Shown in pieces: positions 133 to 37,679 of a stretch of 64,000 nt of DNA (within the stretch, counting starts at the first letter, position 1; every line of letters starts with the position of its first letter). The translations under genes were made by a program, and so were the position numbers. The notes below the pieces were generated by a model, which saw nothing but the letters and a program-made list of their open reading frames with translations, did no database searches and was not told the DNA's origin. Source of the DNA: Ceratodon purpureus (lineage: Eukaryota; Streptophyta; Bryopsida; Pseudoditrichales; Ditrichaceae); the NCBI GenBank assembly GCA_014871385.1, contig CM026426.1, positions 15,914,650 to 15,978,649 of the forward strand. The letters are read 5' to 3'.

Positions 133-1508
133 TACCCTCTCTACATTGTTATGGTGTTCGATGAGTGGGAGCAAGGAATCCCGGTTGCCTTCACCATTCA
201 AGGAAGGTCCAGAGAAGTTGACATCACTCCTTGGCTGAGAAAGTTGCGGGATCGCTGTCTAGCCATTAAGCCAGATTGGAGGCCCAACGCCTTGTTTGTG
301 GATAATGATGACGCCGAGTTGAATGCAATACGATATGCTCCTAAAATGTCTTTGTACAATTCAGGATCTCCGCTGTCTTGGATTAATTGTTTTTTGTTTT
401 GCACCCGCTCCTTGGACTGAAATGGTTGCGAAATAAGACTCTCATTGTGGTTCTATGCCTTTGTAGAAAGGTGTGGCCGGAGGCAGAGGCAATTCCTGGA
501 CAGAAGAAGGAGGAAGTGGCTGTTCTACTCTGCTTATGGCACACTAGGAAGGCATGGTTGGAGAACGCAACCCAGAAGATCAAGGCGAATTATCTACAGA
601 CAGAGGTTCTAACGGCCTCCGCAGATCTGATGTACGGCAATGGAATTCTGCAGGGAGACTTGGCTGTCCAGGCTGCTAGGGAGCGTTTTCAGTTTTTGAA
701 GGCTAAATACCCGCAAGCGAAGGCTTTCTTTGCCTACTTCGAGACTCATTGGATTCGGAAGATCGAAATGTGGGTCAAAGGATACAGGAACATGCCCCAC
801 GCTAATCAGGACACCAATGCGGCTGTAGAGAGCTATCATGCAAATCTGAAAGCACTGCTCCGGATGTCAAGGGCGAAATTCGATGGTCGAAGGGTGGATT
901 GGCTAGTATACCACCTGCTGAAGGACGTCCTGATTCATTATTGGTACGTAGTACAATGTAAGTTGTATGGATTTATCAAGAACAAAAAGGCAGAGGGCAT
1001 CGTGGCTAGTGCTGTCATCAGGGCAGAAGAGATTACTGGTGAACATGTCCTGATTGACATGGAGCAGGATGTGGCTTACGTTGCTTCCGTGACAAATTTT
1101 GGACAGGTCTAGGTAGTGACGAGTCCGAATTCTGATTGGGCTCATTGTAACTGTCCTTTGGGGATGAGGGGAAACACTTGCTAACATGTTGTTAAGGTTT
1201 TTAGGATGCTGAACATCGATGCTCAGCCGGCTGACATTATCAAGTACACAGGCACCTTGCGAGGAACCATTCAGTTGGGGTGCAAACCTTCAGGGATTAC
1301 CAACATCTCTGAAGTTGGGGTGGTGGAGGCAACTTCGGACAGGGATAAACATGTGTCCAGTGTTGACAATCCAGCAAAGACCCTGCGCAGTTATCGATCT
1401 ATTTTGGCAGATTTGGACAGTTTAGGTGTGGAGAACCCTACTCTACTGAACAACTTCCTTGCAATGGCGAACGAACTGAAGGGGAAAATGGCGTCCTTTA
1501 AGGTGTAG
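133..1508 (+). pseudogene. MULE transposase, 3' part, decayed (MULE-1)
   Basis: This is the catalytic and C-terminal part of a Mutator-like transposase that cuts and pastes its own element. It opens at a splice acceptor (CTTTCAG, ending at 132) and reads YPLYIVMVFDEW, then the second acidic motif (FVDNDDAELNAI), then LCLWHTRKAW and DTNAAVESYH, the catalytic Glu region. A SWIM zinc finger follows (CNC...C.H, about 1147-1190). The first 200-nt exon (133-332) has exactly the length of the matching exon in the second MULE of this window (61836-62035). The next exon starts at 467 in the same phase. Damage: the donor at 333 reads AT instead of GT, and in-frame TAG (1110-1112) and TAA (1182-1184) precede and interrupt the SWIM motif. 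The frame resumes to 1508 with a helical C-terminus. The 5' part, including the first catalytic Asp, lies off the window. The family call is firm; the gene is dead or nearly so. Confidence 0.85.
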
Positions 1509-1879
1509 TCTGATGCTGGTTTATTAAATCCTCTATCACAGCCTTCGTTCAAGGTTGGAGCCGGACCAAAGAACTTGCGAAGATTTAAAGCCTGCTCAAA
1601 GTTAGGGACGAAGAAACGGGGAGGGCAGTCTAGGAAATGGAATTCTTAGAAGTATATAGCTAGAGAATTCACTGTATTTCATCCAAATTTTTTGTATATA
1701 TTGAAGCTTATCAAACATGGATCTGCCTGTCCGTGTATCTCTTTTAACTTCAGTGTAATTTCTTCCATGTGCTGGTTAAACGCAAATTGTGTAATTGCTA
1801 TAACATGCTCCAGTCCCCCTGCTAATCTTCTCATCACAATGAAAGTACTGGGACACTCTGAACCTGTTCGGAGTGTGAT
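1509..1879. other. 3' flank of MULE-1, no gene seen
   Basis: No coding signal is convincing here. The stretch holds one copy of the CCTGTCCG motif (1726-1733); another lies just beyond at 1905-1912. It passes into the T-rich repeat on its right. Confidence 0.4.
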
Positions 1880-1899
1880 TTGAGTCCTTTGGAAACCCT

Positions 1900-2889
1900 T
1901 AATCCCTGTCCGAACTTACTCAAGCAGCATTCCCACCTTTCTTTTGCTGGATTTCGGTCATTATCCTTTTATCATTTTAAACTTTATTTGTTATCCACTT
2001 CTTTTATTCCTTTGTTTGATGTGGTTTTGTATTGTTTTTTTCAAATTTTAATGTTTTTTATTTTCTTAATTACATCCATTCTAGAGTTTAGTTTCTTTTC
2101 TCTATGTACCTTGTCTTCCTTCCGCCGTGTGACTCTCTGTCTTCATTCTTTTCCATTATTTCCCCCCACTCGTCTCTCTTACTTCCCACTCCCGTCTCGT
2201 ACACATACACCCTCTCTTTCATTCCTTTTTTTCCCTTTATTTCTTAATTTTTTTTGTTTATTAACCTTTTTTTTTTTTAATCCTTTGGTTCCCTTCCACT
2301 TCCGATCACTTCTCTTTCTTACCTCCCACACCCACCTTCGTGCACCGATCCGTTTCGTTCACTTCCTTTATTTAAAAAAATTTTGGCTTCTTTAAATTTC
2401 AGAATTGGATGTACTTCTGTTTCTTCCCATACCCACCCTCGCACCCCCCCTCTCTCATTGTTTATATTTTCCTTTTTCATGTTTTATTGTTTTTACAATT
2501 ATATAATCGGGTTAAATTTTTTTTCCTATTCTTTCGTCTCACCTAACTCCCACACCCACCCTCACACCCCTGCTCTTCCATTGTTTTATTTCTCATCTTT
2601 TTTTATTTTTTATTTTTTCAAATTTGGTTTCCTTCTACTTCTTCTCACTGGCCTCACTTCTCTCCCATACCCACCCTAACGCCCCTTGTCTTTCATTTAT
2701 TTCCTTATTTTTTATTTTATTTTTTATTTTTTATTTTTTATTTTTAAATTTGGTTTCCTTCTAGCTCTTCTCAGTCGCCTCTCTTATCTCCCACAACCAC
2801 ACTAACACCCCTTCTCTTGAAAAGGCATATTCTCAATTTTTATTTTTATTTTTATTTTTATTTTTATTTTTTCAAATTTCGTTTCCTTC
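1900..2889. repeat. T/C-rich minisatellite, left part
   Basis: Degenerate tandem units of about 105-135 bp occur here. Each has a poly-T/TTTATTTT stretch, a GTTTCCTTCTA block and a CTCCCACACCCACC core. Cores fall near 2321, 2424, 2547, 2663 and 2788. The array resumes at 16552 (cores near 16587 and 16723), so the hAT element interrupts it. Open frames called in it on the plus strand are low-complexity artefacts. Confidence 0.75.
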
Positions 2890-2904
2890 CAGGGTTGTTC
2901 AAAT

Positions 2905-3400
2905 AGACGTCCGACCCGGCTCCGAACGTCAAGACGTCCGACCCGGACGTCCCCCGTCCCGGACGTGGCGTCCTGACGCTCGAGAATTACGTCGCGGTAA
3001 TAATTTTGCGACCCTGGAGGGGTAAAAACATTCCCAAGCCGTCCGATCGGCCGATCCCGCCACCACGCCCCATCTCGGCCGTCCGTTCGCGGGGACGGCC
3101 ACGGGGACGGCCGCGGAGACCATGGCGGCCGCGGAGGGCCGTCCGATCCCGCGGCCGTCCGCGTGGGCGACCGCGGGGAGACACGGCCGTCCGCGTAGCC
3201 AACCGCGTGGAGACGCGGCCGACCGCGGAGACGGCCGCGTCGGTCGGACGGCCACGCGGCGCCATCGCCCGACGCGGCCGTCCGATCGGACGGCCGGCGC
3301 CTTCGAGCGGAGTCGCGCCCGATCGGACGGCCGCGGGGGCGTAGATCGGACGGCCGCGGGGACGGCCGTGGGGACGGCTATGGGGACGGCCGCGAGGTCG
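2905..3400. promoter_or_regulatory. GC island 1 of the hAT element (GGACGGCC repeats)
   Basis: Very GC-rich DNA made of short irregular repeats such as GGACGGCC and CCGTCCGATC in both orientations. The terminal part has ACGTCC-type repeats close to the TIR. It ends a few bases before a TATA-like box and about 300 bp before the kinase-like start codon. Likely roles are subterminal transposase-binding sites, a promoter, or both. The long open frames through it on both strands are composition artefacts. Confidence 0.6.
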
Positions 3401-3408
3401 GCTTCCTC

Positions 3409-3416
3409 TATATAAG
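3409..3416 (+). promoter_or_regulatory. TATA box of kinase-like gene
   Basis: TATATAAG directly follows the GC island and lies about 290 bp upstream of the ATG at 3701. The position and match are good, but no transcript evidence is available. Confidence 0.5.
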
Positions 3417-3542
3417 GGGAAGCCGCCTCTTCATTTTTTACCTTTTTGCTCCCTTTTCGAGTGAGGCTGATTGCTACTGGTGGGGGATTCGATCCTTCTC
3501 CGTTGGTCGTTCTCACCGGGAGGAAAGGGGTCCTTCATTTGA

Positions 3543-3569
3543 GGGGGGGGGGGGGGGGGGGGGGGGGGG
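3543..3569 (+). repeat. Poly-G tract, 27 G
   Basis: An uninterrupted G run lies in the presumed 5' leader between the TATA box and the kinase-like ATG. Runs this long can form quadruplexes, and their length is prone to assembly error. Confidence 0.8.
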
Positions 3570-3700
3570 ACTTTTCGAATTTTTAAACGGTTTTTTTCAA
3601 AACCCTTTGGATTTGTATTGCTCTTATTAATCATAGTGGGAATTGAGGGTTTCTTTGGAGTTGCGGTTACGATTTCTTGATGCCTTGAAGGCTTTCCACG

Positions 3701-5148
3701 ATGCCGAAGAACAAGAAGTAGAAGAATGTGGGGGAATGGGCGAACAAATTCGATGACATGCCGAGCTTACGTTGCAGGGATTATATTGTGGCATTCATCG
3801 TGGAATTTTATCAGGAGAATACCCTTGTTTCATTGAATAGTCGTTACGTTCGGTATGGGGAAGATGGGCCCAGGAAATTCAAGTCAGAGATGGAGACAAA
3901 GATTAGGGATCGTTTGATGGATCCGTGCTGGCATTCGGATACACAGAAGCCCGGTTACGATCATTACGTGTCACAACGTGCACACGATGCGTTATGGAAT
4001 GCTAAAGAGGTTATTACTAATATGCAAAGGCGCAAAGGGGGGGAGTCCAGGCCTTCAAGGATACTATTGCAAAGGCAGATTGCTTCACGAGACTAATGGC
4101 GCCCCTAAGCTCAAGAAAGCATCGACGGGCGTCTATTACTTGGTGGAATTCTCCGATTGGGATGGAGACGGCGGCTGACTTACGTAAACGGCATTTGACT
4201 ATCTTGGCAGACTTTGCAAATTTCTATTACTTGGACAAGGAAGTCCAGAGAGGTGGTTATGCTACCATACGTAGGGTTCGTATTGAAGGAAACCCGGAAA
4301 TCCCACCGTACTGGGAGTTTGCTGAGAAACGGCCGCTCAATTGGTCTATGAGGCCGGATTTGGCACGTGTGGACCACAACAATGAATCTCTTGCGATAAG
4401 GATTCCCCATCCTGGTGTCATCCGCTTCATGGCCATTCATCAGTTGGAACATGTGGGATTCATGTTCTGGTGGAACGGTGGGACCCTTCGAGCCATGCTA
4501 TAGAGAGACAACGAGGCCCCGGGTGACCTCCCCATCGACTACATCTTCAGAGAGAATGCAGAGGACAGTCCGATTCTAGGGAAGCGTCTCCAACTTTTTC
4601 GAAGTAAGCGTACAGAGCTTGCTTGGGCATTGTGTAACATCATAGATGCTGTGCACAAATACGGTAACCTCCACAATGACTTGTCACTGGACAACATCCT
4701 ACTTCACTTTCCGGAAGATGAGTCCAAGATCTACATCGGAGTTTGTGATTGGGGCTTGATGACGAAGACACTAGAGAACAGAAGGTCGCCTTGGGTTTTT
4801 GAGAGTGTCCATCAGAAGGACGAGACTATGAGGAGGCGATACTGGGTGGATCCTCGCGTGGTATACGTACACAAGGAAAACCAAGATATTCAAATCATTC
4901 TAGATTTGACGGTTGCATCGGAGGATTTCGCAGCTGCGAAGATTGCAGCAAAGATCAACAGGGGCAACATGTGCACGGCATACCACGAAGCGGAGCCAGT
5001 AGAAACACGCCATTTCAAGAATATCGGAGAACTCGCAATGGTTTTCGAAGGTTACCTTGAGAGAGTTTGCCAAAACAACAGAGGAACGATTGGTGGACTC
5101 GGACATCTTATTAACCGTTTCAAAGATACACACAACTGGCCCACTCCC
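3701..5148 (+). pseudogene. Protein-kinase-like cargo gene, broken
   Basis: The frame starts at ATG 3701 (MPKNKK) but meets TAG at once (3719-3721). It continues to a frameshift in a G7 run near 4035-4045, then reads on in the next frame, with a further TAG at 4501-4503. The C-terminal part has kinase-fold landmarks: an alpha-E-like helix (ALCNIIDAVHKYGNLHND), a catalytic loop HNDLSLDN near 4672 with Asn where HRD has Arg, and CDWG near 4744-4755 in the place of DFG. A Gly-rich patch (RGGYATIRRV) lies near 4250. Such substitutions occur in divergent kinases and pseudokinases, so activity is uncertain. Both TAG codons could be CAG before a C-to-T change. After about 5148 the frame runs into GC island 2 and meaning is lost, though it stays open to 5568. 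It is the first gene of the hAT element and is preceded by a GC island and TATA box. Confidence 0.6.
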
Positions 5149-5149
5149 A

Positions 5150-5395
5150 ACGTGGAGCGGAGCACTACCGCGTGGGCCAACCGCGGGGACGGCCGTGCTG
5201 CACCCCGCGGTCGGAGGCTGCAGCGGCGTGGTCGGCCACGCCTTTACACGCGGACGGCCCTTCCGACCGCGGGGACGGCCTTGTCCGACCCCGCGGGGAC
5301 GGATGTCGTCCGCAGCCGTAGGATCTTCTCGGCGGAGAAGATCCGACGGCTGTGGGCGACGGTCGTCCACGCGGGGACGGCCGGGGGGGGGAGAG
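5150..5395. promoter_or_regulatory. GC island 2 of the hAT element
   Basis: The same GGACGGCC/CCGCGGGGACGG repeat type as island 1, abruptly replacing the coding sequence of the kinase-like gene. A pyrimidine-rich stretch follows (5400-5475). I see no gene directly downstream, so this island may mark a rearrangement or an internal former end. Confidence 0.5.
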
Positions 5396-5476
5396 GGTTG
5401 AAGGAACTCCCCTCCTCTTGTGTATTCTCTCCTCTCCTCCCCCCTCTCCTTCCCTACTCTCCCCCCTCCTTCTTGT

Positions 5477-5504
5477 CCCAAACAATCCCACTTGGGATTG
5501 TTTG
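5477..5504. repeat. Perfect short palindrome
   Basis: CCAAACAATCCCA and its exact complement are separated by two bases, forming a 13-bp stem hairpin just after GC island 2. It could be a terminator-like or element-end structure; its function is unknown. Confidence 0.6.
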
Positions 5505-5619
5505 GACAGCATATCTCCTACAAATGGAAAATTCAGACATATCCCGGATATTGTGGGGAATGTCCTGAAGATCCTGTGATCGGGGAGGTGGGGTCGACGT
5601 TTGAAATTGGGATCCAATG

Positions 5620-6932
5620 AACTATGTGATATTTTGGTTCTTTGGGGGTGGATAACCCCCTAGGATCTACAAATAATGTGAACACGTTTATGAAGAAGAA
5701 CATATATCCTATTGAATGGAAAGAACCGTAAACATTGTGGGTATACTAAAACAGTTTTTACCAATTGTCATTTAAATAAACGAAGTTACACATGTTTTAG
5801 CATACGGTAATGAATTAACATTTTATACTAACGAATCAAAAGAGTAAATGTCAACAACGAGATGATAAGGGGAACATCGCGGAGAGAATGCACTAGAAGT
5901 AATTCAACGCATAAATTGATGTACACACTTGGTTTTTCATGCGGTGCAACTTACGTTTAAATGGTTAAGAGATTTGCATTTATATTTCACCGGTTTACGG
6001 TTTCATAAATCTCTTAGAAATATAGATCCAATTTCTTCTCGAATAGTGGTATACAATGAAAATATTTATATAGATTCTTTGACTCTAATTTTTTATGGAA
6101 TGATTTACCCCAGTTTTATTTCTTTAATTTTACATACTCTCGTTCTTTAGTATTATGATAAAATCAAAAATAAAAACATAAATAGTAGTTTAGATTATGA
6201 GAGAAACTGGAGATAATAATAAATTAAAAAAAACCAAAACAAACATTCAATTCTCTTGGGATTATGGAATTCATGAGAGGAATAAAACTCAAATCATTGT
6301 TTTCATAACAAATGGTCCAATTCTAATTTCTCATGCCTGGTTTAGAGTTATATGAAATATAAAAACTCTCCTTGCACTTTAATGTCTTTTATTTTACACA
6401 CTTCCATACCGTAGTACTGTGTTAACATTAAAAAAAAATAAAAAATCACTAGCTCACATTATGAGATGAGGAAGGGATAATAGTAAAAAACAAAACAAAA
6501 ACACAAAACATTCAATCGTCACTGAATAATGCCAATTTGTGAACGACTAAAATCGAAATCATTGTTTTTATAAACAATTTTAGTTACCCACGCCCAGAAT
6601 TGAGTTGTAACTTATATGAAATAAAATAAATAAATTAGGTAACACATTTACATTATATACTATACGAATATATGTTTATTCATATACACTTTAACATAAA
6701 TATAAATATGGAATTGGATTCTAACTTGTACAATGTATAGTATATACGTACAAAAGTAATCACTTACTAATGACACAATGAGAGAATTTAACAAACACGA
6801 TAATTCATAGAGACACATAGACTATACTGTACCAAGGAAAAATTAAAAAGTCACAACGTGAAATACTTGGAGCTACAAGTACGGAAATAAAATTATTACA
6901 CGAAAACGTATATTGACGGGACATAATTTTAG

Positions 6933-7001
<69 letters not shown>

Positions 7002-8160
7002 GAATACTAAAAATACTGATGAACGATGTTTGGTAGGGTGGTATTGTTTCGGAATAGTAATTAATTAAATTAATGAACAATACAAAGAACAAGAGGTTTG
7101 AGGACGGATATGAATATTAGAACTATAACGACGACGGGTGTAATATTAAGAAATAACGTATCGATACACTTGGGGAAAGCTGTGAAGTAGAAGTATATTC
7201 ATAAGTAAACAAATGAGTGAACCATCAAAATAATAGACGAAAAAAAAAATAGTTTGAGAGGGAAAGTATCGAAATTATAATTATTAGAAGAAATAGAAGT
7301 CGGCCATGATGTAGTGATACATGGAGAGTTCAAAACGTATATATGAAAGAGGGGTACAGTACTCAATAAAAACTAAAGCAGTAGGGTACATCTAGTAGAA
7401 TATAATTCAAAACTAAAGCAGTAGGGTAGAATTAGTAAAATGGTGGAATAGTGGTCGAATTAGTAAAATATACTTTAACATGGGTCATGGAGGAAATAAA
7501 TCGAAATACGAACGTTCGAAACGATATGAAAGGAGGAAATTCACGAAATGGCATTTATGGAGCTTCGAGGGTTGGAGTCCTAGATTAGACAAATTAGACG
7601 TTAAAAAAAGGGCATAAACTAATGGGGAATAAACATAGAGGAAAATAAAGAAGAAGTAAATGAAAACCATATTCGAAAGTGGAAATTGTATAGAGGGAGG
7701 AACGTTAAAAGTACATAAAGAGATGGTAACTCGAATTAAATTGAGAATATGAAGCCGTTTAATGAAAGTATAATAGAAGTACTTATGTATTTAAAAAAAC
7801 AAAAATTCAAAGCGGAGAATAAGAAGACTGAGAACTATTAAGATTACAATTTCTGAAACAAGTTTAGGTGAGTTCGATTTCTGCAAGGAACTTCTGGAGT
7901 GCGATGGTAGACAGCATGAAATGCGTACGATAGAAACAACAGAAATAATGATTTGAATAAATGACACATACATTAACTTCGGTGGAGCGTACGGAATAAT
8001 GACTCGTTGAAGAATTTAGATGCTTTGCATACCATGAAGTATTTTAATTCATGTTTACATTAACTGCTGTTCTCATTTTAATTAGTGAAAGAAATTAACA
8101 GGTTTAGTTTAATATGTGGTCGGAAGATGTAGCATTATATGTTATTATCATTTTGTATTT
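5620..8160. other. AT-rich gene-free stretch inside the hAT element
   Basis: About 2.5 kb of AT-rich DNA with no convincing gene. It holds a degenerate tandem duplication of about 260 bp (around 6110-6390 and 6390-6640, sharing an AACATTCAAT...CAAATCATTGTTTT pattern), an (AT)n run at 6935-6996, and a short direct repeat AAAACTAAAGCAGTAGGGTA near 7367 and 7410. Its composition differs sharply from the coding parts of the element, so a separate nested insertion is possible. Confidence 0.5.
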
Positions 8161-8184
8161 AAAAAAAGGAGGGGGGGGGGGAAA

Positions 8185-8745
8185 TTTCCCGCGGCCGCGA
8201 CGGCCTCGTCCCCACGGTCGGGGGCCGTCTCCACGGCCGTGGGCCGTCTCCGCGAGGGGCCGTCCGCGGGGACGGCCCTTCGACCGCGGCCGTGATCGAA
8301 CGGCCGTCGCCTTGGAGACGGCCCCGATCGGACGGCCGCGGGCTGTCGCCGACGGGGCCGTCTCCAAGGCCGTCAAGAAGGCCGTCTCCGCGGCCGTCCC
8401 CGCGCGGTCGGCCGCCATCAGACGGCGACGGCCGCGGAGACGGCCGCGATCGGAGGGCCGCAAGCCGCCCCCTCGGGGGCCGTCTCCAAGGCCGTCCCCT
8501 CGGCGACGGCCTTCATCGGACGGCCGTCGCCGAGGAGACGGCATGATCGGACGGCCGCAGAGGCACGGGCCTCCGCGACCGTCACCGTGGCCCCCGACCC
8601 GGCGGCCCTCAACGGCCGTCGTCAGGTTCGGAACGACGGCCATTGGCCGCGGCCGTAGGATCGGGGGGCGACGGCCCCAGGCTTGGGGGGACGGCCGTAG
8701 GGTTGGGGGCCGTCGCCATATATGGCGACGGCCGTCCCCCACTTC
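8185..8745. promoter_or_regulatory. GC island 3 of the hAT element
   Basis: The densest run of GACGGCCGTC-type repeats, in both orientations, ending in GTCGCCATATATGGCGAC. It lies about 220 bp upstream of the ATG at 8967, the same arrangement as island 1. Long frames over it on both strands (Arg/Pro/Gly/Ala rich) are artefacts of composition. Confidence 0.6.
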
Positions 8746-8966
8746 CTCACTTCACTCTCCTCAATAGTCCCTCTCCTATTGCTACAGTTTCCCAATTCAC
8801 TTGGGAGCTTGTTGGTACGTGGGGTTGAGGAGATGGGGGTCCCTTTTTATTGTGGGGGGGGGAGTTTTTGAATTTTCTGTATTCGTTATTTTGTAAACCG
8901 TCATTTATCAACTCCTTGTTTTCTTTAAAACAAAACCATTACGTTTTTGTTTAAAACGAGGTTACT

Positions 8967-9908
8967 ATGGCGGATCCGGAACATGATGAGATTGGAGGAA
9001 CCGGGAAGAGGAACAGGCCGAAGGGAACGTGCCACAACTTTTCTTGGGAGATCCTAGACAACAAAAACATTGTAGCAGCAGAAGGCTGGGAATCTGTAGG
9101 GGAGATTTTCTGGACTTTCAAGGAGTGCAAGAAGTATGTGAAGATGTATCACATTGACAAGTTGTGGCCGCGAGAAGTACACGAGATGAACACACGGACT
9201 TTTACTTGCAAGCCCTGGTCATGCATGGATGACCATTTCTTGCATCGGGCATATGAAGTCTGGACTACTATGTTTGGGCAACGTAAGCCCAGCAAAGGCC
9301 ATTTCAATTATACCATTTGCAGTATGGTATATGCGGAGCTAATATTGAAGCGGAAGATTAGTTGGTGTACGTACCCCACTACGAAAGATAGGCCGTTGCA
9401 AATTGGATGGATGGTAAGAGACATTCCGGATTTATATCTGATCGATCCTTTGCAAGCAAAGAAGGTTGTAGCGGAGTTCCGAAAGCGGCAGTGGCCACAT
9501 CTAAAGAGCTTTCCGAAGAATGAAGTAAAAAAATTACAGAATGAAACTCCGCATCGTCCAGAGGAAAAGAAGCCCGTTGCCATTGCCAATGTGATCGCTA
9601 CGATGTTCCCCATTGCCACGGAAACTAATGTCCCTACTATTCCTAGAGCAGACCTGGGAATCACGGTGAAATCTTCCAACGATACAAAGGGCAAGGCAGC
9701 CGTAGATGAGGTGGAAGTGGAGGTGGACAATGACTGTTCAACACATCTTACGGCTGCGGAAGCTGGATGCTCCAACCCTCGTTCAGTGGATGATGGTCCA
9801 AGTTCCTTGGCAATAGTACAAGTGCGTACCGAAGAGGATAGCACAAAGGATGCAGTCCATTCCATTTCGGAGATTATGGACATTAGGAGAAAAATGAGCT
9901 CAAAATAA
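8967..9908 (+). CDS. Unknown cargo protein, 313 aa
   Basis: An uninterrupted frame begins at ATG 8967 downstream of GC island 3. The N-terminal 180 residues look globular, rich in Trp, Cys and basic residues (RTFTCKPWSCMDDHFLHRAYEVW, shown only in part elsewhere). The C-terminal half is acidic and low complexity (VDEVEVEVDND). I recognise no family. The last dozen codons and the stop are supplied by the left arm of the fold-back element at 9881-10280, so the original protein may have continued into the RING-H2 gene that starts at 10294. In that reading the two frames are one gene split by an insertion. There are no internal stops, unlike its neighbours. Confidence 0.6.
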   Translation: MADPEHDEIGGTGKRNRPKGTCHNFSWEILDNKNIVAAEGWESVGEIFWTFKECKKYVKMYHIDKLWPREVHEMNTRTFTCKPWSCMDDHFLHRAYEVWTTMFGQRKPSKGHFNYTICSMVYAELILKRKISWCTYPTTKDRPLQIGWMVRDIPDLYLIDPLQAKKVVAEFRKRQWPHLKSFPKNEVKKLQNETPHRPEEKKPVAIANVIATMFPIATETNVPTIPRADLGITVKSSNDTKGKAAVDEVEVEVDNDCSTHLTAAEAGCSNPRSVDDGPSSLAIVQVRTEEDSTKDAVHSISEIMDIRRKMSSK

Positions 9909-10280
9909 GGCCGTGTAAGCCTGCCCTTTCTAGGTGAACTCCCTACTTTGGACACCTCTGCCGCTGGCAGCGGATGCCAGAGTTGCTGCCCGCACAGAAC
10001 TGAGTTGCGCACTCACAACAAAGGTCCTCGGAATATTAGGTGAGACATGAATGCCTCGGCTCGGGCTTTGGTCCCAAGTGGGCAGGTTGTGTCAGCCCGA
10101 CACTGTAGATGTGCCCTCCACACGCCTCCCTCGGAGGTCATTGGTTCGAGCCCCCGTGACGGTTGCTGGCACCACGGTGGCACCTCACATGCCATGTCAA
10201 AAAGTACGCGGGCAGCGCCCGTTTTTTTCTCTCACGTGCCGCTTACACGGCCTTTTTGTGACCTGATTTTTCTTCTAATG
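9881..10280. mobile_element. 400-bp fold-back element with tRNA-like B box
   Basis: 40-bp arms at 9881-9920 and 10241-10280 are inverted copies with about six mismatches; GGCCGTGTAAGC is shared exactly. Between them lies GGTTCGAGCCC (10143-10153), close to the RNA polymerase III B-box consensus, so a SINE-like origin of the core is possible. No convincing target duplication is seen. It sits between, and overlaps the ends of, two cargo reading frames. Confidence 0.6.
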
Positions 10281-10293
10281 GCTGGTGAAGTCG

Positions 10294-12537
10294 ATGCCAA
10301 ACAACGAATCATTGAAGGAGTTACTAGATTTTAGCATCAAATTGACGGAGGTGTCCTCTGATGAACAGCGTGGGGGCTTAGAGAATACCACAGAGGGAGA
10401 CGCTGCAAGAAAAACCACGGAGGAAGTGCAACAAATTCATAATGTGTTGAAGATTGCACACACCCTGAAAGAAGGGGCTTCCGTATTAGGCGCTATGGCA
10501 CCAAGTCTCATAAATATGGCTCATGCATTTGGAAGTATCACTCCGGGCATGATACAGGGTGCCCTTGGCTTTGACACTTTGGCATCTTCCATTAAGCCTC
10601 TTCTGGAAGACCGTGTGAAGTTAGGCGAAGAGAACGTGGCCCTGAGTAAGGATTTAATGGATGCAACGGAACAAATCAAGAGTTTGACAAGAAGGTTGGA
10701 CCATGTGAAGATGAATTTTTATGCACAATTGGAAGAGTGCAAAATCTACCACCCGGTAGATAAGGAGAAAAACAAAACAAAAGAAGTGAAGCCTACGGTG
10801 AAGAAGGAAGTGGTGAAGGTGGAAGGAAAGGATCGTATTATTGAAGTACTGAGCGATGGTGAGGATTCCGATGACCTTGGCCTTTCTAAATTTTCAAATA
10901 AAAGTGGAGATGGGGCAAGACAAAGGATGGCGTCTCAGAAGTCTAAAATGACATCTGGTCCAGTTCCATTGGACATTGGCTCTAGCCAAGCAACACCAAG
11001 ACATGAGGATAGAGGAAAAGGGCCAATGGATGATTCAAAAGAATTAGACATTCTTTTACGGGATTTGGAGGTGGCTAGAAGGGAAAGAGACGAGGCCCGT
11101 ACGGAACTGGAAAGGCTGAAGACCACCATACAGATGGTAGATGATACACCATCTTCCACAAGGGCATTATCATGGCTTGGTTGGGTCCACAAACTACGAG
11201 ATAAGGAGACAATAGTCTCTAGAGCACAACAGGATATGAAGAAAAGTGCAATTACTTCCATGGATGTCGAAGAAGCTATCCAATCATCTTTACAGAAGTA
11301 TAACGAGGCAGCAGCCAAGGGCGGCGAGGATGCTACAAAAATCACGATATGGCGCGATGTAGGAGAGATGATGGAGCGCACATTACATAGTTCCAAAAAT
11401 AAAGAAGGGGTCATTGACTGGGCGCTAGAGGTCGAGGAGGGGTGGATGCCGTACGATGTACTATCATCTCATTTGGATGAATCGAAACGTGTGGTTATCC
11501 ATACCCGCAAACCGTCGGAGGAATATTCGAAGGAGACGTGTCCCATCTGTCAACAATATTTTGGGCCGGAAGGGGCCTTTGAGATGGGAAATTGTAATCA
11601 CAAGTTCCACATAACCTGCATCGCGAAGGCTGCTTTAAACAACAAACAGTGTGGTATGTGTCGCTCCTTAATTAGTTCACGTTTTTACGAGATGCTGGGA
11701 CTACAACACGTGATGCCGCCTGGGCATGAGTTTGATCGGTGGAATTTACCACTAGACCAACTACCTAAGAAAGAGCTGAATTATTATGATTGGGGCAAAT
11801 CACTGGCTTGGAACCCGGAGACAATGACTCACCAACTATCTACGGCTAACAATGCCGAAATGGACGATCTTTCATGGATGACACACGACTACGAGGTGGA
11901 GATGAGGGCACGTGAAATTCCGGATGCCAAGGACCGAGAATTTTTTTGTAGGAACTTCGGTGGACATTGAAGTATACATGGCAATCGCTTCTTCCGGTTT
12001 CCAAAACCGGAAGTTGTGGTAGATGCCGACGGTAAGAGAAGAGAAGTAGAACGGGACTATGGCCAACTTGATGAGTACAAGATGTATGACAGAACCCCGG
12101 TTGGGAGGGCACTTGTATTGGCCAAACTAGAAGAAGCCATTCAGCATTGTCGCACTTTTACAGAGGAATCCTTCAAATATTTGGACCTAGACTACTGGGT
12201 GATCATTAAGAAGTCTGACGATGCTCTTCAGAAAATAGTTTGCGACTGGAGAAGGGCACTTCGTGCGGAGGATAATTCCTCTCCTTGATCACGCAATAGG
12301 ATTGAGAAGATTGTGCAAGAAACAGTAGCCAAGATTGAGAAGGCAAAGGAGTTGTGGAACGGGAAGAATTCCAAGAAGCGCAATCGAGACAACCCTTATG
12401 AAGATGACCCCGAATGGGGAGAAGATAATCGTCGTTCTTTGGAACGCGTGGAAGAAGAATATCAATCGGGGGGTACGATTACACATCCAAGCCAGCGACG
12501 CCAAACTCGGAGGTCAAATGCAAACAATGGACGTTGA
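10294..12537 (+). pseudogene. Coiled-coil RING-H2 protein (E3 ligase-like), two in-frame stops
   Basis: One reading frame of about 748 codons starts at ATG 10294 and ends at 12537. It is interrupted by TGA at 11968-11970 and again at 12286-12288, and each could be CGA before one C-to-T change. Predicted coiled coils cover roughly residues 95-150 and 245-285, with charged heptad-like stretches such as DLEVARRERDEARTELERL. A RING-H2 finger lies at 11539-11661: C-x2-C, then C-x-H-x2-H-x2-C, then CGMC. RING-H2 domains normally recruit a ubiquitin-conjugating enzyme, so an E3 ubiquitin ligase role is the family-based inference. The region after the first stop is basic and charged (KKRNRD) and stays in frame, showing the stops are recent. 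The gene converges on the hAT transposase, with about 470 bp between their ends. Confidence 0.75.
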
Positions 12538-13006
12538 GTACAGTATTTTCGTTGGACATGGTACCCGCATTACTACGGTTAATGTGACAATACACTGGGT
12601 GATAGTCGTATTTAGAGCAGTATATATATATATATTGGTTGCGGAGCCGGGTGTATGGACTTTACACTACTTCTATATGTACTTGCAAAAATTACCTCTG
12701 GTTTTAATACAATTTCATTTATGTTTTCTCGGAGTTGCATTTGTGTTGAAAGAATTGTTAGTACTTAGATGCATCGAACTTCATATGTAGATTTTGTACA
12801 TTCATTACGAGAAAGAAATTGCGAGAAGTACAATCAAAGTAAACATAAGTACACAACGCGGAGGACAATATTGAGGATGCAAGCACCAGCGCTTAAAAGT
12901 TAAATGTATATGATATGATAATGGTTTTCTAGAAATGGACATTCATAAAAGAGTGGCATTCTAGGGTGCTGCACCGGAAATGCTGCCTTCTAACTATCGT
13001 GCACAA
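12538..13006. other. Convergent 3' ends of the RING-H2 and hAT genes
   Basis: AT-rich presumed 3' untranslated and intergenic DNA between two converging genes, with an (AT)n patch near 12622. No gene is seen. Confidence 0.4.
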
Positions 13007-15991
13007 TCACGCCACATAATCGCTGTCGTCCTTCACTTCGGCCCCACTAGGACCGGAAGAATCGTATTCGTCATCGCCATCGCTCTCGCGTACCTTCTTC
13101 ACCGTCGCCTTAGTCTTCTTCTTTGACTCGAATGGCTTCAGGAATTTCTTTGGGCCATTCGGGTCATCCAAAGGAGTTTTTGGCCTCCCAGGATTGAAAG
13201 CCAACACCTTCTGAGTCTTGTCTACAGCCTTTCGCTTGGACGTGGCTCTAGCAGGGGGTTTCTCAGGAAATATGTCCGATTTTCCCAAAGCCAACTTCGG
13301 CCCAAAGAGATGCCCAATTGGAAGTCCGTCATCAGTAGAAAGGAGGCCCAGGTCCGCTTCTCGGGTTCGGACCAATCTCTTCCTACATTTCTACGCTACT
13401 TCAGCAGCCTTAGCATCTGCCTTCATTTTTTTAGACAACTCAACCAACCTCGTGGACGATTCGAACCCACCAACTTGGACCCTAGTCTTTGCGGTTCCAA
13501 ACAATGTCCGAGATGCACCCGATACGGGTACGGGCACATCCTCCTTTGTAGTGGGTGGAACCATATCGTCCTTCAGGCGGTTGAAGTTTGGAGAAACAAC
13601 CTTAGAAGTATCAATGGTGGGGTCTCCCTCTTTCTTTGGTACGACCAAATCCACGGTAGTGTGAGAGGATCCTCCCCGGAGAATCTTATCACTGTTTAAT
13701 AAACCGTCTCCATTCAGAAAAGAGGCAAGAGGAATCGTATCCTCCTCGTTGGTACCTTCTTCTTCGACATCATCATACTCGAAAGCACGCTCCATCGGCG
13801 CAGGAGAACAACGGGATTTTCCTTTCGGAGACACCTCGAGGTCGTCGACTAGGGCCTCAATAGGAGGGTCAATTGATAGATTGTCAAAGGGTAGATCAAC
13901 ATCAGACTCACTAGAGTAGTCAACGTCCTCGGTTTCCACGGCCTTCGGATCCTCCTTCCCCTCCAACTCCCCGTAGAACCTGCCTAAGGCACTCAACTTG
14001 GACTGGGAAATTATCTTGGAATTTGTATACACAAACACGAGGTCATTAGCCCTCTCCGGAAGTAAACGGTTTCGCTTCCTGTCATGGACAAAGGAGTAGC
14101 TACTCCAATTCCGCTCGCATGAAGAAGAAGACAGGGGCTGAGCTAAAATCCTTTTTGCAATTGGGGAAATGAATTTACCAGCGGATCTGTATATATCCCA
14201 CCAACTAGAAGGCGGCAGTTGTGACTTAGAGGAGTCACGTACGTCACGAAACGGAGGATAAGCTTCACGAAATGCAAAGAACTCTTCTATGACCACTTCC
14301 TTCAGTGTCGGAGGAGCCATCGACAACAAGACCTCCTTTGCCGATGCCATCGCATCAGTATCATTGTGAAGGTCCTCATCGTCAATAAGATAAGGGTTTA
14401 GAAGCGCAGCAGCACACTGTAAGGGTGATTTAATCATGGCTTTACGCTCATAAAATGAGTCCTCGCAGAAATCAGCATTGTCAGAGTCTAGTTTGAAGGG
14501 CTCATGGCGTAAAGAGAGGACATGCTTCTCAAGGTTGCGGAGAACGACGTAGGCTTTACCCAATGCCGATTCCTTTGCATCAAACTCTCGTAGGGCATAT
14601 ACAATGGGACTCGTCATCCACTTGAAGTTTGCACATTGCTCCCAGAAAACGTCATCCAAGACAACCCTCTTAACATCGCGTGAGATCTTTGCTTTGTCAC
14701 GGGCAGATAAGGTCTTCTTCGTTTCGTAGTTTCTCTAGTTAGGATCCACAACGCTCTGCTCCAATGCTCCTTGAACCTTCAATAGACGCAAAATCATAAT
14801 GTAGTGCGATGCAAACCTAGTCTGACCAGGCATCAGCAAGCTAAGTTTTGCCTCGTGCTTTCGAAATACCGAGAGTGGCATTTGCCTTATCTTTATGAAC
14901 TTAACCAAGTTCTTAGCCCGATCTAGGAGCTCCTTCACCCACTTCATCTTACTCCAATCCTCCAACAAAAGGTCCATCGCATGGGCAGCACATCCTTGGA
15001 CAAATATGGATGGATAGAGTGCCTGGACCAACTTTCCGGCATTAAGCATCACCGGAGCATTATCGTAGCATACTTGAATGATGTTCTGTTCTCCAACTTG
15101 TTGGATAAACTTCTCAATGACGGTCGCTACTAAAACGGCATCCTTCTCTTTCCCACTCGTGTCAACGGCTCCCAAGAATAACTCACCAGCAGGAGATACC
15201 AGCATTGCGTTTATTAGAGGGCGACTGCTTACAGAAGTCCACCCATCCAGGGCCAACGTTCCCCCGTACTTCCTAACACTTGAAAAAATCCTATCATTCA
15301 AGGAAGTCTCCAAATCAGTCCTTGCTTGGGCTAGTAAATTTGTTCGGAGATGGTGGAAAGATGGAGGTGTGTATGATCTCTTCATGTTGGACGTCTTCAA
15401 CACCGCGTCCTTGAAAGAGGCACTCCCAGCCACGTTAAACGAGATACTGTTCTCGTAAAAACATGTGGCCCATGCTTTGTCGCATTCCCGCCTCTGAGTC
15501 TCTTCGAAGCCCTCTTGAAGGGTAGATTGCCTCTTTGCCTTCAAAGGAGGAAACGGTCCACTACCTTCCCCCGGAAGAGTGGAAATGAAAGGTACACCCT
15601 CACCAAATAAAACGGGTTCATTCTTCGGAGTTGAAACTCGGGATCCAGAACATGAGTCCACATCCATGGGAGTGTTCACTCTCGGGGATATATTGCCACG
15701 AGTCACAGGGGAAGTACTCTGCTCCGACATGAATATTCTGGAGTCGTTGGGGAATTTGCCACCGCAATTCTTGAACAAGGACAGTATAGCGGGTGACAAA
15801 TTAGTGCAACGACCTACTCCACTAGTCCGTACCCCTAGAACTTTGTCATAGCCCAAATGACTGAGCATCCGCTCAATCCTCTTTGCGAAAGTGTTCTTGC
15901 ATAGCATACATTGAACCATCTCAGTCTTCTTCTTCTCCGCATCGATCATATGGACTTCGGTATACCATGGGGAGTAACTTTTAGACGCCAT
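13007..15991 (-). pseudogene. hAT transposase, complete length, two in-frame TAG
   Basis: The minus-strand frame of 995 codons runs from ATG 15991 (MASKSYSPWYTEV) to 13007. In order it has a BED-like zinc-binding region (CMLC...H near 15910-15870), a low-complexity linker, and a DUF659-type catalytic region with LALDGWTSVSSRPLINAML and CAAHAMDLLLEDW. It ends with the hAT C-terminal dimerisation domain (WWDIYRSAGKFISPIAKRIL, then SSSSCERNWSSYSFVHDRKRNRL). An acidic then basic tail follows. The frame is broken only by TAG at 14735-14737 and 13391-13393, both possible CAG-to-TAG changes. The frame is also open upstream to about 16087 (LNWSFFGGSS), which may be extra coding sequence or an exon. 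This is the enzyme expected to move the element and its smaller relatives. A TATA box and GC island 4 lie upstream. Confidence 0.9.
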
Positions 15992-16196
15992 TGGTGCACT
16001 TGATAGATCGCCCGGAAAAACTTCAAAAAATCCGGGTACCACGTCCTCAAGAGAACTAGAGCCTCCGAAGAAGCTCCAATTCAACACACTTCTGAACGCC
16101 GCCGTTCACCATGCAACAGATACACACGTATATTAGTGCAACTAGTAGCATATGGAGTACAATTCAGAAGTGTAATGCCAACTTTCAGGAGGGGTC

Positions 16197-16203
16197 TTTT
16201 ATA
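16197..16203 (-). promoter_or_regulatory. TATA box of hAT transposase
   Basis: TATAAAA on the minus strand, about 205 bp before the transposase ATG and immediately downstream of GC island 4. It repeats the island-TATA-gene order seen at 2905-3701. Confidence 0.55.
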
Positions 16204-16239
16204 CTCATCCCATGAAATGCCAAGGGGTAAGCCCTAAAA

Positions 16240-16540
16240 ATCAAGGGAGGACGGCCGTCGAGGCCGTAAGTCAAGCGAGGGGCCGTCCGATCATGGATTG
16301 TCACGGCCGTCGAAGGGGCCGTCGCCGGGGACGGCCCCTTCCCGACGCGGCCGACGGCCCCCCCCCCGCTCCGCGGCGACGGCCGCACCCTCCCCGCAAC
16401 CCCTCCCCCGCGTAGAAGGTGTGGTTTCACCCCGGGGTGAAACCTATGCGGGTGATTTTTTTTTTCTAAGTCACAGGACGTCCTCTGGCGCTGACGGACG
16501 TCCGCGGACCTCCCCACGTCCCGAGCGTCCCGGACGACCG
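16240..16540. promoter_or_regulatory. GC island 4 and right subterminal region of the hAT element
   Basis: GGACGGCC/GACGGCCGTC repeats occupy 16245-16385. An imperfect palindrome follows near 16420-16445 (TTTCACCCCGGGGTGAAA), then ACGTCC-type repeats up to the right TIR that match the left terminal repeats. It is the likely transposase-binding and promoter region. Confidence 0.6.
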
Positions 16541-16551
16541 TGACAACCCTG

Positions 16552-16870
16552 TTTCCTTCTAGCTCATCTCACTCCTGGCTCTTATCTCCCATACCCACTC
16601 TCACATCCCTCTCTTTCAGTGTTTCCATTCCTTTTCTTCTTTTTTTATTCTTAATTTCTTTATTCATGTTTTTATTTTTTATTTTTATTTAGTTCTCTTT
16701 GAGTCCTTCTCACAAGTCTCTCTTATCCCCCATCCATCTCCATCACACCCCCTCTTTTCTCAGTATTTCATGTCGTTTTTTTTTTTTTTTTAATTTTTTT
16801 TTAAAAATTTTATCATTGGATTTCCTTTGTTGTTTTTGATTTTTACCTTAGAGTCGTCTAGTTCAAGACA
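16552..16870. repeat. T/C-rich minisatellite, right part
   Basis: A continuation of the array at 1900-2889, starting with the duplicated target TTTCCTTC. Two further units have CTCCCATACCCACT and CCCCCATCCATC cores. Confidence 0.7.
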
Positions 16871-34800: not shown

Positions 34801-37679
34801 TTGATCGCATTACCTTCTTCTATTTGTCGTTTAACTCTATCTCTGCTGCAATATTCCAGTTCTTTTTATTGTTTTTTTTTTCCTTAAATTTTTTCTTTCA
34901 AGTTTATCCTATTTCACTCCTCTACACTTGCTTTCCTACTTCTGTCAATGACAATTCTAATCTGTTCGCCTTCACTCAATTCAATGTTTTTGGTTTTTTT
35001 TTTTTATCTTTTTTTATTATCTTTTTTTCTTTCCACACAATAACGTTAACTTCCACCATGATTGAAGTCCCTACACTGCTGATTAATTTCTCAGTTGCTA
35101 CGTTCCTTCTAACCTAATTACCTCAACGTATCGCTATCTTCGTTTTCTTTCAATCACCGCTTTAGAGTGGCCCTGTCGGCCTTTCTGGACCAAGCTTTCA
35201 ATTTCCACTAAGACTTCACCTATACCTCTTTGAGTTTACAATTGCTGTTGCCAAATTTTCTTCCATAGTTTTCCCTATCTCATTCCTCTACACTCACTTT
35301 CTTGTTTATCTCAATGGCAACTTTGATCAGTGTCACTGTCATTCAATTCCATTCTCCTTTTTTTGTTTTTTTTTTTTTTTTTTTCCCATGTAGTAACGTT
35401 AACTTCGATTATGACTGCAGTCCTCTTTTAATTTCAATTTCTCACTCGATAAGTTGCCTCGTCTCCAATATGACTTAAGTCTATCATCAATCCCGTTTCT
35501 TGCGTTTTTTTTTTTTTTTTTTTTTTTTTTTTCCATTTAACTCTGTAGATCACCATGGTCAGAGAAGTGAGTACTGTGGTGTCGATTTCCCTCCTATCTT
35601 TTTATACATCTTTGAGTTTACGGTTACTATGATTCCTTTGCGTACGTCCATGCTTAGAATCTTTCTGTTTGCTTTTTGGCAAGAGGAATTCGGAATATTT
35701 CGATTGTGTAATTTCAATTTTACTGCTTAGCCTTGATACCAAGCCAATCATATCATTAATATTGTTTGATTTTCCTTTGCTTTAACCAGGAACTCCCGAT
35801 CAGGAACACATTAGATGTCATGCATATCAAAAGAAATGTATCTGACAATCTTCTCAAACACCTGTTTGGAGAAAAAGATACTACAGCATGCCAAAGAGAC
35901 ATGAAACAGACGGGGAGTATGCCCAACCTTAACATGGTTCAAGATGGATCAGGTAATTACATAAAGCCTAGAGCCCCCTACGTGTTCACTGAAGCTGAGA
36001 AATCCAGCTTCTTATCCCTCATGACATCGACGCGGGTTCCGACCGGATATAGGAGCACCATGATCAAGCACATAGGAGAGAGTCGGTTACAAGGCTTAAA
36101 AAGCCATGATTACCACGTGCTGTTGCACCAAGTCCTTCCGGCAACGATCAAGAATATTCTAACCTGTGGAGTTCGCGAAACCATAGTTCGACTAGGCAAC
36201 CTATTCCAACGTATTTGCGCAAAAGTCATTAGAGTATCAAAAATCAAGAGCTTGCGAACAAGTGCAGCCAAAGTACACTGTCCCTTGGAGATTAATTTCC
36301 CGCATGGTTTCTTTGAAATAATGACATACTTGGTTGTTCATCTCGTAGATGAACTAGAGATATGCGGTCCAATTCATGCACGCTGGTGCTACTCTGTAGA
36401 GCGATACTTGGGAGTACTCACTGAGTGTGTTCGAGATAGATCCAAACCCAAAGCAGGGATAGCATCAGGTTATATGGTTGATGAAAGCTTAGGCTTTTGT
36501 ACCGAATATTTCCAGTTGCACGACCACACGAAGAGTAGGCTATGGGATGCGGAGGAGGAGCTCAAGGATGTCGGAGAATGCTTGTTGGAGAAACCAAAAC
36601 CGAAGCTGCTCATTGACAGGGAAATGGATTTCATACATGACTATGTCATCAAGCATTCTATACACACCGAGGAGCTGTTAAGGTGAGTTGTCCATTCAGT
36701 ACCTAGTTCACCTCCTTGTCTCTTGGTCTGGATAACAAGTTTATTTCCATTGTCTTACCAGCTTCCATTTCTGTTATTCTGAGAGACGATCACTCTCCTT
36801 ATGTAATCTCATGTTGAACAATTGTTCGCTGTGAGTGGAGCGAGCAGCGGAGACAGTACAAATTGAGGCGGGAGCAGTTTGCTAGACGTCCTTGCGGAGG
36901 CGTTATAATCTACCCAAACGACGTGGCCCTTCCATTCTAGAAATTCAGTCCCTGGTTGAATGCACATGTTTGTATGCTCAAAGAGGAGGGTTTTCTCGTC
37001 TCTTATGAGTTCGACTCACTGCGTTGCCCCCCTTCCCAACATGCATTTTCATTTTATGCTATGTGGGCATACGGATGCCACTACTCTTACACCAACGAGG
37101 GAACTCAATCTTCAGCCGTATTTGATTGCGGGATTGCGGCTATTCCTCCCTCACCGACATGTACACAGATTGACGTTGGCATCCTCCGAGATATAATCAT
37201 GGTATAAGATGCGTGGTCATGGAAGCGTCTTGGGTAAAGGCCATCGATCAAGGGAGAAGAGTCGTGAAGAAGGATCCTCTTGGATTCTGAATAGTAAATT
37301 ACGCGTCAAAGGAGGCACGGGAGAAGGATAATCCTTATGTATACCCGGCCAAAGTTCTCAGGTTTTTTTCCTTCCGGACAGTGTTGATCCGAGCTAAAAA
37401 GTTGTGCTCAGACATGATCCGCGATCACGGCATATAGAGGGTGACCGCGACGTCCATGTGTTTGGTGCAACCAGGGATTGTTAGACCCACACTGAGCACC
37501 ATGTCCGAGGCTAACGTTACTTCTGCATCTACCTCATCTAAGACTGAACACGTTACCCTGAGGTGGTTCCTGCTGATCACTTTAGAACAGTGGTACATGC
37601 GGAAGAGTCTCCCAATGATGACACTCACCTGGATGATGTCGAGTTTGAGGACGAAGTGGAATTAGCTTACGTAGAGTAA
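31825..37679 (+). pseudogene. CACTA transposase (tnp2 / TnpD), broken
   Basis: The DNA-cutting transposase of the CACTA element. Exon 31825-32052 encodes the N-terminal CPCNICLGKN finger region (donor GTATGA). Coding then runs from about 32147 to 33799 with the tnp2 landmarks SCPQCG (after ILFRGMEYKDL), PRNLRLGLATDGVNMF, NFDVYLQPLLEEL and LLWTIHDFPAYG, ending LFNLPYWK at a GTACAC donor. A 1,990-bp intron (33800-35789) leads to exon 35790-36682: NTLDVMHIKRNVSDN, then a DUF4218 region (CPLEINFPHGFFEIM, VERYLGVL). Decayed exons to 37679 hold a DUF4216-like piece (QVFFLPDSVDPS) and an acidic tail. Breaks include TGA near 32835, TAG at 33078-33080, TGA for an expected Trp near 33234, and a frameshift in a C6 run near 33640. 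Confidence 0.85.
34830..35740. repeat. Degenerate ~375-bp tandem repeat in tnp2 intron
   Basis: T-rich units recur with shared phrases: CCTCTACACT near 34920 and 35288, GTAACGTTAACTTC near 35041 and 35393, and CTTTGAGTTTAC near 35228 and 35609. Spacing is about 350-380 bp. It has expanded the intron without touching exons. Poly-T runs lie near 35360 and 35505. Confidence 0.6.

Follow-up and report, generated by a model that had tools for sequence, protein, structure and literature searches.

Does the locus described here hold a transposon that owns the extra genes found inside it, and if so, what might these genes do for the element? The stretch analysed (the window) is 64,000 nucleotides of Ceratodon purpureus contig CM026426.1, here called C6 (C6:15914650-15978649). 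A first-pass annotation, made from the letters alone, had described window positions 2890-16551 as a 13.7-kb hAT transposon carrying kinase-like and RING-H2 genes. We found that 2890-16551 is a hAT element, present as a decayed copy, and that it belongs to a high-copy family whose intact members carry four genes. We consider it likely that this family is an autonomous four-gene hAT of ~16.7 kb, recently mobile, whose accessory proteins serve the element, perhaps through VANC-like anti-silencing or regulation via arrays of a short motif.

The boundaries, first drawn from terminal inverted repeats (TIRs) and a perfect 8-bp target-site duplication (TSD) in a minisatellite, proved exact. The TSD TTTCCTTC flanks the element at 2882-2889 and 16552-16559, and a 9-bp TIR CAGGGTTGT occupies 2890-2898, with its complement at 16543-16551. 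Since the octamer is part of the host-site minisatellite unit, this TSD by itself is open to doubt. The doubt is removed because the joined flanks align across the junction to upstream minisatellite units (112/145 and 114/147 identical, 77-78%) and because TSDs are found family-wide. Membership of the hAT superfamily also shows in the 8-bp TSDs of the window copy and of the 8/8 further copies in which both flanks are readable, and in CAGGGTTGT at both ends, which fits the pattern [T/C]AGNGNNG given for plant hAT TIRs in the available part of PMC6027215.

Near-identical copies with the same ends and gene set lie at many sites of the one genome searched (362.5 Mb, 151 contigs). We scored the best 40 of 474 candidates for the left end, 87 of 1140 for open reading frame (ORF) 1, 86 of 1133 for ORF2, 77 of 1021 for ORF3 and 46 of 1426 for ORF4; the resulting lists give minimum copy numbers and favour intact copies. 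In all 40 left ends the match extends over query bases 1-231 or more, with an identity of 100% for the window and 94-97% for the rest. Ten copies (a to j) were fetched, 20 kb each. Both ends are readable in 9/10, giving lengths of 16,619-16,783 bp, and the perfect 8-bp TSDs seen in 8/8 copies with readable flanks all differ. Intact copies hold four intronless ORFs: ORF1 (+, 491 aa), ORF2 (-, 500 aa), ORF3 (+, 1056 aa) and ORF4 (-, 994 aa). All four frames are open in 5/9 copies (c, e, f, g, i); of the others, ORF4 of copy a and ORF2 of b and d contain a stop, and ORF3 of h is shortened. Among the scored copies, the frame is stop-free within the match in 57/87 for ORF1, 47/86 for ORF2, 60/77 for ORF3 (563 aa only) and 28/46 for ORF4. 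Judged by top score, identical proteins occur at different loci, ORF1 at 4 and ORF2 at 6.

Gene order bears on whether the genes travel together. Strand-blind clustering of the best hits gave 129 loci, 24 of them with all four genes and 93 with at least two; order and orientation are constant in 93/93 multi-gene clusters and in 160/160 adjacent pairs (within 8 kb) on 13 contigs, and strand-fixed clustering gave the same collinearity. Loci of equal score (pairs on C4 and C6) are probably segmental duplicates, so that 129 is not an insertion count. We conclude that it is strongly supported that the extra genes are part of the element. Furthermore, the joined flanks (40 bases) of the copy on C11 match 5/7 tested loci (L002, L003, L004, L006, L008) with 1-2 mismatches; the other two of the seven, L005 and L007, lack the site. 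This match is a paralogous empty site, the C11 copy lying in another repeat. Near-identical copies, TSDs and the paralogous empty site imply insertion, and suggest recent mobility of the family. The first-pass annotation had proposed to look for such further copies with the same ends and genes, for a conserved gene order and for empty sites.

The window copy itself looks dead, and the family does not. It is ~97.5% identical to intact copy e in ORF1, ORF3 and ORF4. Compared with copy e it has lost ~3.1-3.4 kb including ORF2 (junction near 5176), has a shortened array 1 and has gained a 400-bp insertion within ORF3. Two in-frame TAG stops interrupt the transposase gene, ORF4, and neither ORF1 nor ORF3 is intact. 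The features of this copy and its site are as follows (window coordinates; strand where one applies).

2882..2889: left target-site duplication TTTCCTTC
2890..16551, + strand: entire hAT element, decayed (16.6-16.8 kb in intact relatives)
2890..2898, + strand: left TIR CAGGGTTGT
3077..3391: array 1 of GGACGGCC, 13 exact motifs, upstream of ORF1; shorter than in intact copies
3408..3416, + strand: TATA-like CTATATAAG just past array 1, a putative role; seen in intact copies too
3701..5176, + strand: ORF1 remnant, kinase-like, keeping HNDLSLDN and CDWG, with two stops and a frame change, its last codons lost at the deletion; start placed from intact copies
5176..5181: deletion junction, ~3.1-3.4 kb of the intact element including ORF2 gone
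5187..5382: array 2 remnant, 4 exact motifs; upstream of ORF2 in intact copies
5500..8100: AT-rich central spacer, including 6801-7433, absent from copy e
8258..8737: array 3, 9 exact motifs, upstream of ORF3
8967..12535, + strand: what is left of ORF3, which in intact copies encodes a RING-H2 protein of 1056 aa; the alignment gives an estimate of the 3' end
9881..10280: nested 400-bp insertion that interrupts ORF3, bounded by inverted ends of 40 nt (88% complementary); copy e lacks it
13007..15991, - strand: ORF4, hAT transposase, interrupted by two in-frame TAG stops; domains DUF659 and hAT dimerisation
16196..16206, - strand: TATA-like GAGTATAAAAG between array 4 and ORF4, a putative role; seen in intact copies too
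16249..16336: array 4, 3 exact motifs, upstream of ORF4
16543..16551, - strand: right TIR
16552..16559: right target-site duplication TTTCCTTC

This layout changes part of the earlier picture. The length of 13.7 kb is right for the window copy, and because ORF2 has been deleted from it, the intact element measures ~16.7 kb. The annotation had counted at least three genes besides the transposase, namely a kinase-like gene, one of 'unknown' type and a coiled-coil RING-H2 gene. There are indeed three in intact copies, and the kinase-like and RING-H2 genes are real; the 'unknown' (8955-9908) and the 'coiled-coil RING-H2' gene (10279-11970) are a single ORF3, broken by the nested insertion and stops, and the third accessory gene is the deleted ORF2. 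Comparison of the nested insertion (9881-10280) with an intact copy gave no clear target duplication. The AT-rich stretch 6801-7433, which contains (AT)31 and is missing in copy e, has a counterpart of ~585 extra bases at the same place in a C1 copy at 8.80 Mb, so copy e may carry a deletion.

ORF4 is a hAT transposase, with Pfam matches to DUF659 (E 2e-35) and Dimer_Tnp_hAT (E 1.5e-10) above the curated cut-offs; zf-BED (E 0.06) falls below its cut-off, and the best match in the Protein Data Bank (PDB), Hermes, is not significant (E 0.14). LALDGWTS, CYDNAP, CAAH and CERNW, picked out by eye, are candidate DDE-type motifs. In intact copies, ORF3 matches zf-RING_2 (E 2e-7) above the curated cut-off and retains the C3H2C3 zinc ligands in 16/18 copies read (L012 and L039 each lack one), which makes it a RING-H2 protein and a putative ubiquitin ligase. 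The HxD...N motif is the catalytic loop of kinases and DxG their metal site; ORF1 retains HNDLSxDN and DWG in 12/12 copies read and has a best PDB kinase match of E 0.002 over 60 residues. ORF2 matches nothing in Pfam at E values up to 1. It has in common with ORF3 an N-terminal domain (35% over 105 aa, E 2e-9 in a single comparison), and BLAST found no relation of ORF1 to ORF2 or ORF3.

Besides its genes, the element carries a dense repeated motif. Copy e has 59 exact occurrences of GGACGGCC on either strand, all within four GC-rich arrays (24, 18, 8 and 9), each upstream of one ORF; the outer pair doubles as the subterminal regions, and the inner pair lies >5 kb from either end. The window has 29 occurrences, compared with a mean of 0.86 in shuffled windows, and none in the 50.2 kb outside the element. 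The right flanks of the ten fetched copies hold 12 in 30 kb (partly N); 11 of the 12 are next to the C11 copy, at a place where there is also a second, related left end. In the 8 copies with all four anchors (copy a, whose ORF4 anchor is missing, and j are excluded), the motif count is zero between the starts of ORF1 and ORF2 and between those of ORF3 and ORF4 in 8/8; the lengths of these two stretches differ between copies by 10 and 16 bp, those of the array-bearing ones by 27, 151 and 209 bp. Measured from the first base of the array motif nearest the gene, a TATA-like motif begins 24-120 bases further on in 35/36 copy-by-gene cases, a count that measures conservation and is not an independent discovery, since the motifs were first read from copy e. 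These positions suggest that the arrays are putative promoters. CpG decay, compared between ends and genes of the window copy as a sign of methylation, involved few changes.

The element is built as four single-gene cassettes, with ORF1 (+) converging on ORF2 (-) and ORF3 (+) on ORF4 (-), each gene beginning beside a GGACGGCC array with a TATA-like box in between. As its most likely working we propose that the N-terminal domain common to ORF2 and ORF3 would let one or both of them bind the arrays and maintain activity of all four promoters in a VANC-like manner, while the RING and kinase-like parts would target chromatin or silencing factors, or set the transposase level. We infer that the accessory proteins serve the element and that ORF2/ORF3 bind the arrays. 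The fullest version of this scheme is a self-encoded regulatory or anti-silencing system of several proteins, in which a new DNA-binding domain in ORF2/ORF3 reads GGACGGCC at four promoters and the RING-H2 and kinase-like proteins remove or disable host silencing factors or tune the transposase; we regard this version as tentative, and on balance doubtful.

A comparably tentative alternative is that the arrays are transposase-binding repeats doubling as promoters, through which the transposase would regulate itself, and that ORF1-3 act elsewhere, for example in excision repair or the cell cycle. The subterminal position of the outer two arrays agrees with it, since hAT transposases use subterminal repeats according to the available part of PMC4763223; yet the other two arrays are internal, >5 kb from either end, and the domain common to ORF2 and ORF3 would be left without a role.

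We consider it unlikely that the extra genes are passive cargo, captured once by a hAT from the host or another element and hitch-hiking through a recent burst without serving it. Selection bears on this point. Substitutions were compared with the expectation from 175 noncoding substitutions of the same copies, on the assumptions that each arose independently and that this spectrum is known. Purifying selection on the transposase is clear: among variants common to at least two copies, ORF4 has an omega of 0.21 (p 3e-7). For the same class of variants ORF3 has an omega of 0.61 (p 0.008) with 0 stops against 5.9 expected, and ORF1-3 together show 0 stops among 147 shared variants against ~7.3 expected. 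Among singletons, omega is 0.52, 0.55, 0.56 and 0.52 for ORF1 to ORF4 (p 0.03, 0.0025, 1e-6 and 0.001). Between copy e and the window copy it is 0.59 for ORF1, 0.62 for ORF3 and 0.31 for ORF4, and between copy e and older copies 0.47 and 0.53 for ORF2 and 0.40 for ORF4. ORF4 differed from the rest in the same way when sites were simply counted and the spectrum left aside. A stop deficit at p < 0.05 appears in 5/11 pairwise comparisons, a figure that is biased because most older copies were chosen for open frames. The N-terminal domains have N/S ratios of 1.10 versus 2.13 in the rest of ORF2 and 1.25 versus 2.28 in the ORF3 linker, differences that are not significant. Passive cargo would fit the omega of ~0.4-0.6 that ORF1-3 show on most counts, nearer 1 in some pairs, and it has a precedent in the hAT that captured and amplified histone H3 in Pseudocercospora fijiensis, as described in the accessible part of PMC6710886. 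Against it stand the three ORFs, 2,047 codons in total, open in many copies; the missing stops among their shared variants; the array and TATA-like box that each gene has of its own; and one element (L041, L045), ~5% diverged in ORF2 and 3% in ORF1 with both frames open, though picked for open frames.

Several observations weigh against our reading of accessory genes that serve the element. Purifying selection on ORF1-3, which the first-pass annotation had proposed to look for, is weakly supported: there is a signal in ORF3 and in the singletons, but for shared variants ORF1 (omega 0.61, p 0.23) and ORF2 (0.38, p 0.13) fall short of significance. In ORF1 and ORF3, constraint is no stronger on shared variants than on singletons, and within ORF3 it is no stronger on the RING than on the remainder. 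Between copy e and older copies, ORF1 reaches an omega of 0.65 and 0.92 (the latter p 0.46) and ORF3 of 0.81 and 0.77 (neither significant), a third ORF3 comparison giving 0.57. The choice of copies by high score or open frames also favours fewer stops. As to the proteins, the Pkinase match of ORF1 in intact copies (E 3e-5; 24.0 bits versus a cut-off of 31.7) covers residues 303-388 only; since it is below the cut-off and confined to the catalytic part, we call ORF1 kinase-like. The ORF2/ORF3 domain finds nothing convincing in PDB (one match, E 0.6) or Pfam (one member, E 0.12), which leaves array binding without direct support, and AlphaFold models of ORF1 and of this domain (pLDDT 35 and 33) are too poor to use. 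Finally, 36/129 clusters list a single gene (13 ORF1, 12 ORF3, 6 ORF4, 5 ORF2). The lists hold best hits only, so an absent partner gene means little. The one of these clusters that was opened, a transposase-only entry on C1, spans element positions 826-12863, and the sequence of ORF1-3 is thus present there (the left end was not found). In the loci read (8 left ends and this one of the 36 clusters), we encountered neither cargo-less copies of the family nor single genes in elements of their own.

Two further explanations fare worse. A virus-transposon composite of the Teratorn kind, which long intronless ORFs with kinase-like and RING domains might bring to mind, is very improbable: no capsid, polymerase or packaging family is among the Pfam matches of the four ORFs, and an IMG/VR scan with two queries found no relatives, the ORF2/3 domain alignment giving 76 pattern matches with 0 confirmed and ORF1 giving none; on these results we rejected a viral origin. 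That the genes belong to separate nested elements sitting together by chance, as the real nested insertion at 9881-10280 and the single-gene clusters might suggest, is scarcely credible given 93/93 collinear multi-gene clusters on 13 contigs with near-constant spacing in the copies measured, and was rejected on the fixed order found by both clusterings, a test that did not extend to TIRs or TSDs around single genes.

The left ends and one pair of copies add detail on the family. Eight left-end loci were read, the window copy among them. L005 and L007 jump from element position ~611-711 to 5748-5852 (array 2), losing ORF1 and ORF2, and look like internal-deletion derivatives. The other five (L002, L003, L004, L006, L008) match the family over their first 605-660 bases and then continue with other sequence; they look like non-autonomous relatives or a second family. 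The interiors of L006 and L008 contain repeated units of ~280 bases between GC-rich blocks. On C8, copies h (L031/L032) and j (L035/L036) are 98-99% identical, with N at the left of h and over the right end of j, and the right flank of h and the left flank of j carry the same 8 bases, CTCACAGG; this may point to a single insertion that an assembly gap has divided, or to exchange between copies.

Diverged copies are unevenly distributed among chromosomes. Taking score as a proxy for age and keeping duplicates, 12/43 of the better-scoring half of listed ORF1 copies lie on C6, compared with 40/44 of the lower half (Fisher p 1e-9); for ORF2 the counts are 14/43 and 36/43 (p 3e-6). C6 has 110,524,308 bases, 30.5% of the genome, and the closer half of the copies is spread as chromosome length predicts. 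The C. purpureus sex chromosomes measure 110.5 and 112.2 Mb according to the part of PMC9273592 available, and C6 is probably one of them; longer survival without recombination would explain its excess of diverged copies.

Elsewhere in the window, long ORFs at 59677-63085 end in a zinc-binding-like CNC...CKHH stretch and presumably resemble a MULE/FAR1-type transposase, and a 308-aa ORF at 35760-36686 resembles what we take to be a CACTA-type transposase-associated protein.

Compared with known systems, the family has the usual attributes of the hAT superfamily (Ac, Tol1/Tol2, Hermes), with a DUF659/hAT dimerisation transposase, plant-type TIRs, an 8-bp TSD and a repeated motif near the ends, and differs in its 16.7 kb, four genes and two internal motif arrays. 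The statement that hAT elements are usually a few kilobases long with one gene agrees with the comparison elements Ac, Tol1 and Tol2, which have one gene and are below 5 kb (Ac 4.6 kb, available part of PMC3260210; Tol1 4.4 kb and Tol2 4.7 kb, available part of PMC10175614). Plant hAT elements have been surveyed, and none was detected in Physcomitrella according to the accessible portion of that survey (PMC6027215). We found no report of a four-gene hAT in the literature searched, which covered subscription journals thinly. The nearest working analogue appears to be VANDAL21 of Arabidopsis with its VANC protein, by likeness and not by membership. VANDAL21 is a Mutator-like element, so that the superfamily differs; the motif differs as well, and the likeness is one of description. 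VANDAL21 also has several genes; its noncoding tandem repeats, which vary between copies, are rich in a short motif to which VANC binds, lowering methylation (accessible parts of PMC5735166 and PMC10398659). The hAT of Dothideomycete fungi likewise amplified an extra gene to many copies; there, as far as the available text of PMC6710886 goes, a captured housekeeping gene, histone H3, has copies inactivated by RIP, whereas here three accessory ORFs are open in many copies. Teratorn and Starships are also large multi-gene mobile elements of eukaryotes, the former a 180-kb piggyBac-herpesvirus fusion and the latter fungal, 27-393 kb, in few copies and with accessory genes (available part of PMC10175614), whereas the present family has a small fixed gene set at high copy number.

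Altogether, a recently amplified family with a fixed set of three accessory genes and a shared motif array at each gene offers a testable case of a transposon with its own regulatory machinery. If the fullest version of the proposed scheme is true, a counterpart of VANC anti-silencing would have arisen independently, in another superfamily and in a haploid-dominant plant.

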